Shown piece by piece: positions 38,501 to 53,640 of a stretch of 64,000 bases of DNA; position 1 is the stretch's first letter, and each line of letters opens with the position of its first letter. Position numbers and translations under genes: made by a program. Source of the DNA: Blochmannia endosymbiont of Camponotus sp. GTDB lineage: Bacteria; Pseudomonadota; Gammaproteobacteria; Enterobacterales; Enterobacteriaceae. The notes under the pieces were generated by a model that searched no databases, had not been told where the DNA came from, and saw only the letters and a list, made by a program, of their open reading frames with translations. The DNA lies in assembly GCF_023586365.1 (NCBI RefSeq), contig NZ_CP097759.1, positions 496,001 to 560,000 on the forward strand. Reading direction: 5' to 3'.

Positions 38501-39429
38501 GTAGAATTACTACTAGTATTAGAATTATATTTCGTATAATTGAGGGTTAGATTTATGGGGTAATACTCTTTGAATATTATGCTACCTATTGCATCAAAGT
38601 ATCCATACGGCAATTTAAGATTCAACTTGATATTTGCGGTCTGATTATATAAATATGTCTGCAAATAAAAATAATTAATAATATAAGAATTATTATTATT
38701 AAAAATATAAAAATTCTCTCCTATGATATCTTTTAGAATTATATCTATAGGAAGATTGAAAGAAGGTAATTTTATTAATAATTTACTAGACAGTAATTTT
38801 AATAAATACTTCATATTCTGTTGATTACTATACTTATATATATCTATCGCATTGGTTGTTATATTTAATACATTTATATCGGAAAGATTTAAAACCGCCC
38901 CTTTGATATTTACAGGCAAAACTGTCAATAAATTATCTTGAAATGTTAATTCAGTATCTAATTTTGTTACTTTAAGCGTAATGTTATTTGAATGAATACA
39001 AGTATTATTCAATACTATATTCTTTAATATTATAGCAAACGGGATAGAAAAAATATTATCTATTTTTATCCTTTCGTATTTTTTATGTGATTCACTCGGC
39101 GCATTGTTTTTTTTTATTTTTATACAAACATCCTCCAAAAAAAGATGATTAATATATATTTTTTTATTCCATATATATTTTAGATTAAAAAAAACATCAC
39201 ATTTATCAACGTTAATTATACTCTTGGCGGTTTCGTATACTACATGAGTTATATTAAAATTACCCCAACTACCAGAAACAGAATCAAATTTTAAACCAGG
39301 AATACAATACGTAATACCTGTAAAAGTTAAATATGTTCCTATATTAGTACCTAATAAAAACACAAAAAATCCGCATACTATTGATATCCATAATAAAAAA
39401 ATAACACAGATTTTTTTTATAAACATCAT
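35593..39429 (-). CDS. tamB: Translocation and assembly module protein TamB
   Basis: Large inner-membrane-anchored periplasmic protein that pairs with TamA in outer-membrane assembly and, in recent models, lipid transport. An N-terminal signal anchor (about residues 5-30) is followed by a long beta-rich region. The conserved C-terminal DUF490 domain contains LTGHIDILSGCFQAYGQNL, RINGAFSQPKIEIFSD and ends VDVLYKFDF. The length is 1278 aa, slightly more than E. coli (1259), with no internal stop. Its ATG overlaps the tamA stop (ATGA). Conservation of such a long frame next to a frameshifted tamA is informative. Confidence 0.93.
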   Translation of the reverse strand: MMFIKKICVIFLLWISIVCGFFVFLLGTNIGTYLTFTGITYCIPGLKFDSVSGSWGNFNITHVVYETAKSIINVDKCDVFFNLKYIWNKKIYINHLFLEDVCIKIKKNNAPSESHKKYERIKIDNIFSIPFAIILKNIVLNNTCIHSNNITLKVTKLDTELTFQDNLLTVLPVNIKGAVLNLSDINVLNITTNAIDIYKYSNQQNMKYLLKLLSSKLLIKLPSFNLPIDIILKDIIGENFYIFNNNNSYIINYFYLQTYLYNQTANIKLNLKLPYGYFDAIGSIIFKEYYPINLTLNYTKYNSNTSSNSTNIENKDVSKIKLVIAGELYNEICLCCDFLGVISTVHVLLKTKITQFGMPITISIVGRKIPLSFLGKNDCLIEELDVSVNGEVRNYSIQIISQLSSAQFSSLVHMVMNAQGDVNGCSISKLRMTALEEYLDIQGVINWEGDMISWNSVCVLNKINIFQNWLKYPVNFSGNISTQGHVCSDAWDITISDLNIRGSIENNSISCIGVLYNNSTGIWKIPTLLIKWGPNALKIQEDFKRDSIFNIVFAAPDCNVLIPGLNGSVYGKFKLYNSVKYSPRLLLNIDACSLYWRDKNLNFDKIMINGDICYDTVIPSKIFFQANQIKCGILSLRQLIMQGQGNIKEHYLNLVASGDMLSGQVKLFGNLDLFHKTWHSKIDKTSIVTSTGTWKLMQDIVLTYQYLTRKVILNSHYWEIIDCTIPISNVLKKNILNKVNDAFKNFNVVSLKILLPGLINMHTARIYCTDCYWILGTLLPKGTILFSGKQFNIKSSIEELEIFPIKINNITAKIVLTQTTSCCKWFMNIGHDDQIRGLFKITKLRNTSKLVGNAHFENVSLVSFCNSLLSLKEPVNGLLNLNIYFYGYKHRLKIFGTAQLKNFNVNKPDTPFFVKNGQLFIKFFGDHAVLNGTIDTDYGCRLHVNGNIMNFDSISNIRAFFKIRGNQINFCMSPEIKMKISPDFTCAITAEKVHIEGNIEIPWAHIEMKEYSKNITNISSEEILLDDSFQLILNNSKNLFIAFSANINVCLGNDVNFNGLGFRTKLRGNLEIEYNKNHSALTGHIDILSGCFQAYGQNLIIRKGQLLFSGAINQPYIDIEAICDPSIKEGSIVGIRINGAFSQPKIEIFSDSSSLSSQEITSYFLSGSKNIILLNTDTNIVTSLLIGATVRNSEKFINKIGKIFGVQDLTLNTQDIGTAPLVALSGYIAPGLQIKYGISIFDLLTTITVRYCLGSQLYLEVTSGSNQQAVDVLYKFDF

Positions 39430-41187
39430 AAATCTGGTCCTAAACTGACGTATAAATATAAAAACTGATGATTCATATTTCCTTTATGAATCAATGGAGT
39501 TGCTATGTCCAATTTTATAGGACCTATTGGTAATTGCCAGCGCGCTCCGATACCTATACCAGATTTAAAACTATTCCATTTAATATCATGAGTAATCTCT
39601 CCTGCGTCTATAAAAATAGCTCCCCACCATTTATTAATTACATTATACTGATATTCAAACGTAGTAGTAATAAATTTAGTAGCGACACCTATAAAAGATT
39701 CAGAATTATCATAAGGATATAAGGATTTATATTTATATCCACGGATACCATTATTTACATTAGAAAAAAATCGCGACATTAAATCAATAGATGAAAAATT
39801 ATTGGTATCTATCCAACTTAAATTTCCACGAGCCAAAATACGATGTTTTTTTAACAATGTCCGAACCCAAATATTTTGAACTTGCACAACAATAAAATTA
39901 ACATCCGATTTCCAACAATTATTAGATATATTAATTGAGTAACGCTGACTATCTCCCCAATACGGTATTATTTCTCCGCGTTTTCGAATACGGGATATAC
40001 TTATCCCTGGATAAATTAACATAATATTTTTAGCGATAATATTATTAGAACAATGATTAAAGTGCCAATGCACATTAATTGAACGTTGCCATTTATGGGA
40101 ACAATTCCAATAACGAGCTATATTTATAGTCGCAGCACTAGACTGAACATTATGTGTATCTTCATGTATCAACCCTCCTTGTAATAAATAATATTCTTCT
40201 AATGGATTAGAAAACAGTGGAATTTTGTAACTTAGGTCAAGATCTTGCTCTGGCCTAGATAAACTAAAATTAGTTTCTAAACTATGTCCGCGCGCATTAA
40301 TCCACGGTTTTTTCCAAATGATTTTAGTTCTAGGGCCTGTATCAATAGCAAAACCAGATCCAGTTGAAAAATTATTTTTTGCGCAAGGATAAAGAAAAAT
40401 ATCTAATACTATTTTTTTTTTTGTTGAAGACGCATATAATCTGAAGAAATCGATATTGATTCAAACCAATTAGTATAAGAAAATCGGCGATTTAATTCCA
40501 TAACGGATGTAGCACTGTAATATTCTCCCAATCGTATATTAGATATATTTTTTAAATAATCTTCCTTAATTTGACTACCATGAAATTTAATTCTTTCAAA
40601 AACATAACGCTGACCACTATAAAAATCTATGTTCCAAATACTCTGACAACGAGAAGGGATGACAATAAGTTGACTATTTTGGAACTTAGCATCAAAATAT
40701 CCTTTAAATAAAGCTAAATTATATAGTTTATTTTTGCACTGTTCGTAATCATTGTGGTTCAATCTTTTCCCAATAAAAGACTTGCTGTCTTTTATTATTT
40801 TCTGGTAATCAACATCCTTTATGCCTTCTCCTCGTATGACGATATTTACATCAGTAACTACAACTGGATCCCCAGGTTCAACTTTAATAACTAATAGATC
40901 AGAGTCTTTGTTCAACGGCTTAAGCGGAAAAAACATCAATGTAGGAGCGTAATAACCCAGTGGGCGCAGTCCAGTTCTAATTGCATTGTCTATTTTTTTT
41001 TTAAATCTGAATCTATATATTTTACATTAGTATTTATATTCAATAATTTTTGACGTACATTATAATTTAATTCGCTATTTAAACCTTCTATTCTTAAATT
41101 GATACTACTATTACATATTAACGGCATAAAACAATATATTACTAAATAGAACCTTATTGTCATATATTTTTTAAAATCCCTAAACAT
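39426..41187 (-). pseudogene. tamA: Outer-membrane assembly protein TamA, split by two poly(A) frameshifts
   Basis: Omp85-family outer-membrane protein, partner of TamB. Segment 1 (41187-40990) holds a signal peptide and the start of POTRA 1 and ends in an A10 run followed by TAG. Segment 2 (about 40992-40409) holds POTRA sequence (LRPLGYYAPT, VVVTDVNIVIRGEGI) and ends in an A11 run followed by TAG. Segment 3 (about 40411-39426) is the beta-barrel (TGPRTKIIWKKPWINARGHS to the C-terminal SLGPDL). One extra A at each run would join all three into about 587 aa (E. coli 577). Sequence conservation across the breaks suggests recent damage, rescue by transcriptional slippage, or homopolymer sequencing error. 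Gene identity is firm; functional status is open. Confidence 0.9.
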
Positions 41188-51883: not shown

Positions 51884-53155
51884 TCATGAATGATCTAATA
51901 ATTTTTGTTGTGACATCATGAAATAAGAGCATAAGCCTTTGTACAAAGCATTAGCTATTTTTTCTTGATATCCGTTATTAACCAACAGAAATTCTTCTTT
52001 TACATTGCTAATAAATCCAGTTTCTACTAAAATAGATGGAATATCAGGAGATCGTAATATACCAAAACTAGAATATTCAGGTATATCCTTATGTAAAGGA
52101 GTAATATTTTTTAATTGATGTAAAACATGTGCTGCAATATCATACCCTGCTCTTTGAGCGTAACCAAATTGTAAATCTAAAACTAAATGATTAAAATACG
52201 GATCACTATGATAGCTGGTTAATATATCTCCCAATCCTCCCAATAACTCTGCGTGTTTCTCACTGCGTTGTAGCCAATGTATCATTTCACTTTTAGCGCG
52301 ACGATTAGATAATACCCAAACTGATGCCCCTCTAACATTAGTGTTTAAAGCAGAATCTGCATGAATAGACACTAATACATTTGCTGCTCTTTTTCGAGCC
52401 AAATTAGAGCGTTCCATGACCGATAGAAAATAGTCTCCATCACGAATCATAACAGCTTTAAAACTCGGATCTAAATCCAATAATGTTTTTAGTTTTTTAG
52501 CTATGTTAATCGTAATATTTTTTTCATATATTCCATGGCGACCTGTAGCTCCTGGATCCTGCCCTCCATGTCCAGCATCGATAGCTACAATAATAGGAGA
52601 TAATGTCTTATTGTGGTTCTGATTTTTTCTAAATTGCGTATCTATTATTCTCTCTTGATTATTTATTACTTGACCTGAATTAACATGAATTTTACGGTGT
52701 ATAATGGGGGATATTTTGCGAGTATTTACATCAGAGACGGTAAACATTTTTTTTTTCAAAATTGTTAATACAATACGATAATGTTCTTTTATTTGTTTTT
52801 GTGCTACCGTTCCTATGTTGGAAGGAGAAGTTAAATCTAATACTATACGTATACTTTGGTGATTAAGAGATGTATTTGTTCGAATACGTTTAACTAAATT
52901 AGTGCCATTAAAATTTATTGGAAATATATTTTTTTGAACTTTAGATGTTTTTAAAAGATCTATTACAATTCTTTCCGGGTTATGCAAGGAAAATACCATA
53001 TACATGGGAACAACAGCGCTATCTAATGTTACTATAGCTTGATTTGTATTATTGGTAACAGAGATTGAACTAAGAGTTGATGCTATAACTGGGTCAACAC
53101 ATAAATATTTTGAAAATATTGTCATTACGAAAATTATTTCGTATTTTAACTTCAT
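51884..53155 (-). CDS. amiB: N-acetylmuramoyl-L-alanine amidase AmiB
   Basis: Periplasmic zinc amidase cleaving peptidoglycan for daughter-cell separation. A signal peptide (about residues 1-25) precedes an AMIN domain. The Amidase_3 domain shows IVAIDAGHGGQDPGATGRHG, NVLVSIHADSALN and SILVETGFISN, which carry the expected His and Glu zinc/catalytic residues. The start at 53155 overlaps the tsaE stop (ATGA) and has GGAAG upstream, giving 423 aa (E. coli 445); an earlier ATG at 53173 is less likely. E. coli order is tsaE-amiB-mutL-miaA. Confidence 0.95.
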   Translation of the reverse strand: MKLKYEIIFVMTIFSKYLCVDPVIASTLSSISVTNNTNQAIVTLDSAVVPMYMVFSLHNPERIVIDLLKTSKVQKNIFPINFNGTNLVKRIRTNTSLNHQSIRIVLDLTSPSNIGTVAQKQIKEHYRIVLTILKKKMFTVSDVNTRKISPIIHRKIHVNSGQVINNQERIIDTQFRKNQNHNKTLSPIIVAIDAGHGGQDPGATGRHGIYEKNITINIAKKLKTLLDLDPSFKAVMIRDGDYFLSVMERSNLARKRAANVLVSIHADSALNTNVRGASVWVLSNRRAKSEMIHWLQRSEKHAELLGGLGDILTSYHSDPYFNHLVLDLQFGYAQRAGYDIAAHVLHQLKNITPLHKDIPEYSSFGILRSPDIPSILVETGFISNVKEEFLLVNNGYQEKIANALYKGLCSYFMMSQQKLLDHS

Positions 53156-53640
53156 GTTTCTAACTTCCAACATGCTAACAAAGTATCTAACATTTTGTTA
53201 CCTAAACTACTAAAAGATTCTATAATGACTTTCCTAGATTCTTTACGATCATGATAATTTATCGTTACTGAAATATCTTCTTTTGGTAAAATTCCCATTC
53301 CTTGTTTTGGCCACTCTATTAAGCATACAGTGTAGCCATCAAAATAATCTCTAATCCCCATGTACTCTAGTTCTTCTGAAGAAGTTAACCGATAAAAATC
53401 AAAATGACATACACGCCAATGCGTCAAAATATAAGATTCAATTAAAGTGTAAGTAGGACTATGTATATGGCCATTATGTCCTAATGCATTTAAAAATCCC
53501 TTACAAAAAACAGATTTTCCTGATCCTATATAACCATTTAAATAAATCACACAACCTTGAACACAAACAGAAGCCAAAGTAGCACCTAATGACAGGGTTT
53601 TTAATTCATCAGATAATACCAATACACATTTCTTCATCAT
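53152..53640 (-). CDS. tsaE: tRNA threonylcarbamoyladenosine biosynthesis ATPase TsaE
   Basis: ATPase subunit of the TsaB-TsaD-TsaE machinery that makes t6A37 in ANN-decoding tRNAs. The Walker A motif is YLNGYIGSGKSVFCKGFL near residue 33, followed by HIHSPTYTLIESY, CHFDFYRL and YMGIRDYFDGYTVCLIEWP. The length is 162 aa (E. coli 153). The usual Asp in the GDLGAGKT-type loop is Tyr here. It overlaps amiB by four bases. nnr and queG, which precede it in E. coli, are missing. Confidence 0.95.
   Translation of the reverse strand: MMKKCVLVLSDELKTLSLGATLASVCVQGCVIYLNGYIGSGKSVFCKGFLNALGHNGHIHSPTYTLIESYILTHWRVCHFDFYRLTSSEELEYMGIRDYFDGYTVCLIEWPKQGMGILPKEDISVTINYHDRKESRKVIIESFSSLGNKMLDTLLACWKLET

Follow-up and report, generated by a model that had tools for sequence, protein, structure and literature searches.

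Frameshifts of ytfM (tamA) in homopolymeric tracts are already known in Blochmannia: a comparison of three genomes found the gene frameshifted in poly(A) tracts through independent events, the indel of B. pennsylvanicus being located differently from that of B. floridanus and B. vafer, and the same paper speaks of genes that each carry one indel within such a tract (PMC3017870, 2010). According to PMC5009743, the RNA polymerase of bacteria slips on stretches of 9 A or T, genes of aphid and ant symbionts give 12-50% corrected transcripts, and corrected transcripts are reported for a histidine gene of an ant symbiont.

The tamA of the Blochmannia endosymbiont of Camponotus sp. analyzed here is the same gene with poly(A) indels, but it carries two breaks at once, and it was compared in 13 genomes rather than three. 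The literature searched contained no report of a double break in tamA and no paper in which Blochmannia occurs alongside TamA as a whole word; besides PMC3017870, Blochmannia and ytfM were mentioned together in PMC2808357, which deals with an E. coli strain. As far as these searches go, the double break, the further genomes, an in-frame state in one relative (G007) and an extra change in another (G011) are new.

Structure of the broken gene and its surroundings

The window, that is, the whole 64-kb stretch analyzed, spans positions 496001-560000 of a genome (G000) that consists of one contig of 790,497 bp. As the initial annotation had described, tamA lies there in three open frames of the minus strand, separated by an A10 and an A11 run that are each followed directly by TAG (Table 1). 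Its statement that both breaks need repair in the same direction also holds, as the frame passes from 1 to 0 at run 1 and from 0 to 2 at run 2, and the segments between the runs, of 61, 189 and 327 codons, contain no further stop. The coupling of tamA to a fully open tamB through an overlap was likewise found as claimed.

Table 1. Features of the tamA-tamB locus, in window coordinates.
Feature	Position	Strand	Remarks
tamA segment 1: start (ATG at 41187), first part of POTRA1, through A10 to TAG	40990..41187	-	65 codons + stop
Run 1: A10 (coding strand), then TAG; first frame break	40993..41002	-	out of frame in 8/13 genomes
tamA segment 2: remaining POTRA region, through A11 to TAG	40409..40992	-	matched in 13/14 genomes
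Run 2: A11 (coding strand), then TAG; second frame break	40412..40422	-	out of frame in 4/13 genomes
tamA segment 3: barrel, to TGA overlapping the tamB start	39426..40411	-	matched in 13/14 genomes
tamB, unbroken, 1278 codons	35593..39429	-	TamB PF04357, E 1.3e-46; matched in 13/14 genomes

The proposed order of the segments, POTRAs and then barrel, was borne out by Pfam matches to POTRA (PF07244, E 1.2e-8) on the ORF at 40409-40939 in segment 2 and to Omp85 (PF01103, E 1.3e-21) on the ORF at 39426-40172 in segment 3; the locus has the POTRA domains followed by an Omp85 barrel, with tamB adjoining, that mark a TamA. The Pfam positions in the unbroken G003 gene put run 1 within POTRA1 and run 2 where the last POTRA match ends, immediately ahead of the barrel. 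Of the proteins scanned, that of G003 alone matched the TamA-specific domain PF17243, which run 1 interrupts in the window genome. A Pfam search of segment 1 alone (41000-41187) gave no match, and a signal peptide judged by eye is probable in this segment. At the DNA level, 40960-41187 matches 11 of the 14 genomes surveyed at E<=0.001, ten of them at the place of tamA, the match in G005 being one of 23 bases located elsewhere. A search of the window genome for a second TamA found none, the sole other Omp85 match being a separate 807-codon frame that we read as BamA.

Only three A/T runs of at least ten bases occur in the window, and two of them are the tamA breaks. The third, an A10 of the coding strand at 52747-52756, lies within an open amiB-like gene (51884-53173), which makes that gene a candidate both for a future break and for use as a slippage control. 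Genes listed by the initial annotation as carrying intact A9 runs were ileS, ispB, mscM and rpsO; the list had omitted tamB itself, which has one at 39107.

State and history of both runs in the genus

The survey covered 14 genomes of the genus including that of the window, and tamA and tamB were found in 13. Relatives were taken as B. pennsylvanicus (G004, 791,654 bp), B. floridanus (G002, 705,557 bp), B. vafer (G012, 722,585 bp), B. turneri (G005, 749,321 bp) and B. obliquus (G006, 773,940 bp). The genomes out of frame at run 1 are G000, G001, G004, G008, G009, G010, G011 and G013, and the run is A10 in all five genomes of the window's subclade; seven of these eight breaks have one frame relation and that of G011 (A9) has another. 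The run is in frame in G007, where it is one base longer, and its place is in frame with no A run of 8 or more in G003 (A7), G012, G002 and G005. At run 2, the frame is lost in G000 (A11), G007 (A10), G012 (A11) and G002 (A9) and kept in the remaining nine genomes, with A12 in G001, G004, G008, G009 and G003; the four nearest relatives of the window genome all have A12, in frame. The comparison of relatives that the initial annotation had called for distinguishes a run 1 break common to many genomes from a run 2 break private to one within the subclade.

Both breaks coincide in G000 only, tamA is entirely open only in G003 and G005 (2/13), and in G007, G012 and G002 it is open except for the break at run 2. 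These states agree with PMC3017870, B. pennsylvanicus being broken at run 1, and B. floridanus and B. vafer at run 2. All 13 tamB genes consist of one open frame; that of G005 holds an A11 run yet stays open.

Searches of G006 with tamA segments 2 and 3 and with tamB gave no match for any of them. There, cysQ and ppa match opposite ends of a 6.2-kb stretch (C1:105800-112000) without tamA or tamB, whose other main ORFs were recognized by eye as obgE, rpmA, rplU and ispB; the block from obgE to ppa appears by eye to be inverted with respect to the window. Judged from G006, the TAM can be lost in the genus, a point against continued use of the broken tamA. All states of tamA occur in the genus, namely intact, with a break at run 1 only, at run 2 only or at both, and missing along with tamB, and this range offers a natural test of the load of homopolymer breaks that one gene can bear. 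Two wider contig scans yielded no Blochmannia loci: the one with tamB as query confirmed nothing, and the one with an alignment as query returned 16 loci from other organisms, which were set aside.

Mapped onto a protein tree of tamB with 13 rows, the states of run 1 require at least two changes and those of run 2 at least three. G007 is placed between the two groups that have a broken run 1 (support 97/99 for its joining the five and 83/89 for the nine), so that run 1 either broke twice or broke once and regained its frame in G007. G002 and G012 have long branches, and one event or two may underlie their breaks at run 2. On either history, the break at run 1 predates the split of G000, G001, G004, G009 and G008, unless each separately lost a base. 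Run 1 seems to be an old break, and run 2 apparently arose on the terminal branch. The initial annotation had handled both breaks as a single phenomenon; their ages seem to differ.

Sequencing error, considered from the outset as an alternative, is very unlikely at run 1, where A10 recurs in five genome records of one subclade, and possible at run 2. Homopolymers of 11-12 bases are prone to error, and the A11 of run 2 is private to the window genome within its subclade, as it would be if its length were an assembly error in a gene that has the old run 1 break only. We give this reading a slim chance, given that three other genomes have also lost the frame at run 2, that a B. pennsylvanica record (791,499 bp) holds a protein of only 252 aa (P0001) whose start inside segment 3 suggests an upstream break in that strain too, as far as can be told from a protein alone, and that the ytfM indels of B. 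floridanus and B. vafer are placed elsewhere than that of B. pennsylvanicus (PMC3017870). Another protein that starts in segment 3 (P0002, 258 aa) was set aside because its contig is short (4,217 bases). The database TamA clusters P0027 (504 aa) and P0028 (512 aa) have internal starts inside segment 2, past run 1, and the missing first segment misleads users of the database.

Selection on the three segments

Pairwise codon-model estimates of omega were obtained for the 10 pairs that five genomes form and the 3 that another three form, the pairs not being independent; G002, G012, G003, G005 (divergent) and G007 were left out, and all eight genomes used carry the run 1 break. In segment 1, omega was 0.09-0.46 in the 12 usable pairs, the G004-G008 pair having been excluded for unbounded dS, and differed from 1 at p<0.05 in 10 of the 12. 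Values were 0.083-0.321 for segment 2 (p<0.05 in 13/13 pairs; p at most 0.034) and 0.107-0.305 for segment 3 (p<0.001 in 13/13 pairs; p at most 5.3e-4), similar to the 0.184-0.256 of the unbroken tamB. The dN/dS analysis that had been suggested for the three segments therefore detects purifying selection, with omega of 0.08-0.32 in segments 2 and 3. Nine genomes were divided into segments, and no stop lies inside any segment; in a rough neutral simulation (one relative, 600 runs, nominal 0.23 hits/site), segment 2 acquired a mean of 3.3 stops and was stop-free in 2% of the runs, and segment 3 acquired a mean of 6.1 and was never stop-free.

As the break at run 1 is present in every paired genome, segments 2 and 3 came under selection through a product that crosses run 1 or one that begins at an internal start. 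An internal start would yield a protein lacking the first segment, and segment 1 is itself conserved. G011 gives no sign of relaxed selection despite its other frame relation. As the first break is common to the subclade, the gene has probably depended on slippage for a long time, to judge from this selection.

On the branch leading to the window genome, the changes unique to G000 (N:S) were 6:3 in segment 1, 6:6 in segment 2, 7:7 in segment 3 and 33:32 in tamB. Tested against the neutral share (0.77 N for segment 3), only segment 3 departs from neutrality (P 0.026), segments 2 (0.062) and 1 (0.33) being indistinguishable from it. The gene does not look like a pseudogene in having no extra stops and an omega well below 1 across the subclade, with segment 3 alone departing from neutrality on the window genome's own branch. 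It does resemble a gene rescued by slippage, with its breaks in long A runs and the remainder open, and purifying selection flanks the break at run 1; for the private break at run 2, the test on the branch has little power.

A further possibility is that slippage kept tamA working at run 1 and that the break at run 2 has now inactivated it, leaving a very young pseudogene. This would suit a run that is broken in the window genome and A12 and in frame in its four nearest relatives, the requirement for two corrections instead of one, and the joint loss of tamA and tamB in G006. We nevertheless consider it unlikely: G007, G012 and G002 likewise have a tamA that is otherwise open around their run 2 breaks, and the 7:7 of segment 3 matches both tamB and the segment 3 of three sister genomes (15:14; Fisher p 1.0 in both comparisons), a match of little weight if the break is very recent. 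The rescue by slippage put forward in the initial annotation gains support for run 1, broken in 8 of 13 genomes with segments 2 and 3 constrained, and is weaker for the private run 2.

Slippage and other possible routes to a full-length TamA

Overall, we think it probable that the frameshifted tamA is still used, rescued by a slipping RNA polymerase. The polymerase would slip at each long A run and generate a mixed pool of mRNA, of which a minority of molecules would join the frames and be translated into full-length TamA. The run 2 break would be a later change in the window lineage, at a site repeatedly broken in the genus, and a full-length mRNA would now require correction at both sites; if, as in other symbiont genes, 12-50% of transcripts were corrected per site and the sites acted independently, about 1-25% of the transcripts would be full-length, a figure that is arithmetic and not measured. 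Production of a spread of transcript lengths would also lead one to expect the situation of G011, with an A9 run, another frame relation and selection that gives no sign of being relaxed. That slippage still yields some full-length TamA is the most likely interpretation of the genomes compared, and it is well supported, though indirectly, for the run 1 break; the private run 2 break could instead be a recent inactivation or an assembly error.

The same fusion product would result from a route absent from the initial annotation, a -1 shift of the ribosome on A_AAA_AAA, a heptamer that stands in the upstream frame directly before the TAG at both runs and fits the frame required. The dnaX site of E. 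coli, A_AAA_AAG, shifts strongly according to PMC5009743, and it shares with the tamA runs an A run in a lysine context. It differs in that no stimulators were found here and in that the frame relation is not kept in G011, where run 1 requires a different shift. By eye, no AGGAG-like stretch is present in the 30 nt upstream of the runs, and the 80 nt 3' of them fold no better than shuffled sequences (z +2.30 and +0.92, with 199/200 and 168/200 shuffles folding at least as well). A ribosomal shift with a downstream structural stimulator is unsupported by this folding, and ribosomal shifting as a whole seems to us very improbable.

The tamA breaks have a counterpart in hisH, which an A11 run divides in the window genome (G000:C1:69591-70168) and nine others (10/14); run length and frame relation are identical in all ten. 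In the window genome the run lies about 60 codons in, between frames of 65 and 162 codons, with the frame relation of the tamA breaks. Corrected transcripts are reported from a frameshifted histidine gene in B. pennsylvanicus (Tamas et al. 2008), reportedly hisH, to which the hisH of the window genome is comparable. That gene differs from tamA in having one break against two, and in that transcripts were measured there and genes alone here. PMC12779916 regards hisH as pseudogenized in several lineages, which runs counter to the slippage reading. It is also conceivable, although quite unlikely, that the out-of-frame state of run 1 is itself kept by selection as a fixed dimmer, with little TamA made by slippage, and hisH working likewise after a first segment of similar kind; such a dimmer would account for the loss of frame at run 1 in 8 of the clade's 9 genomes, 7 of which keep the frame at run 2.
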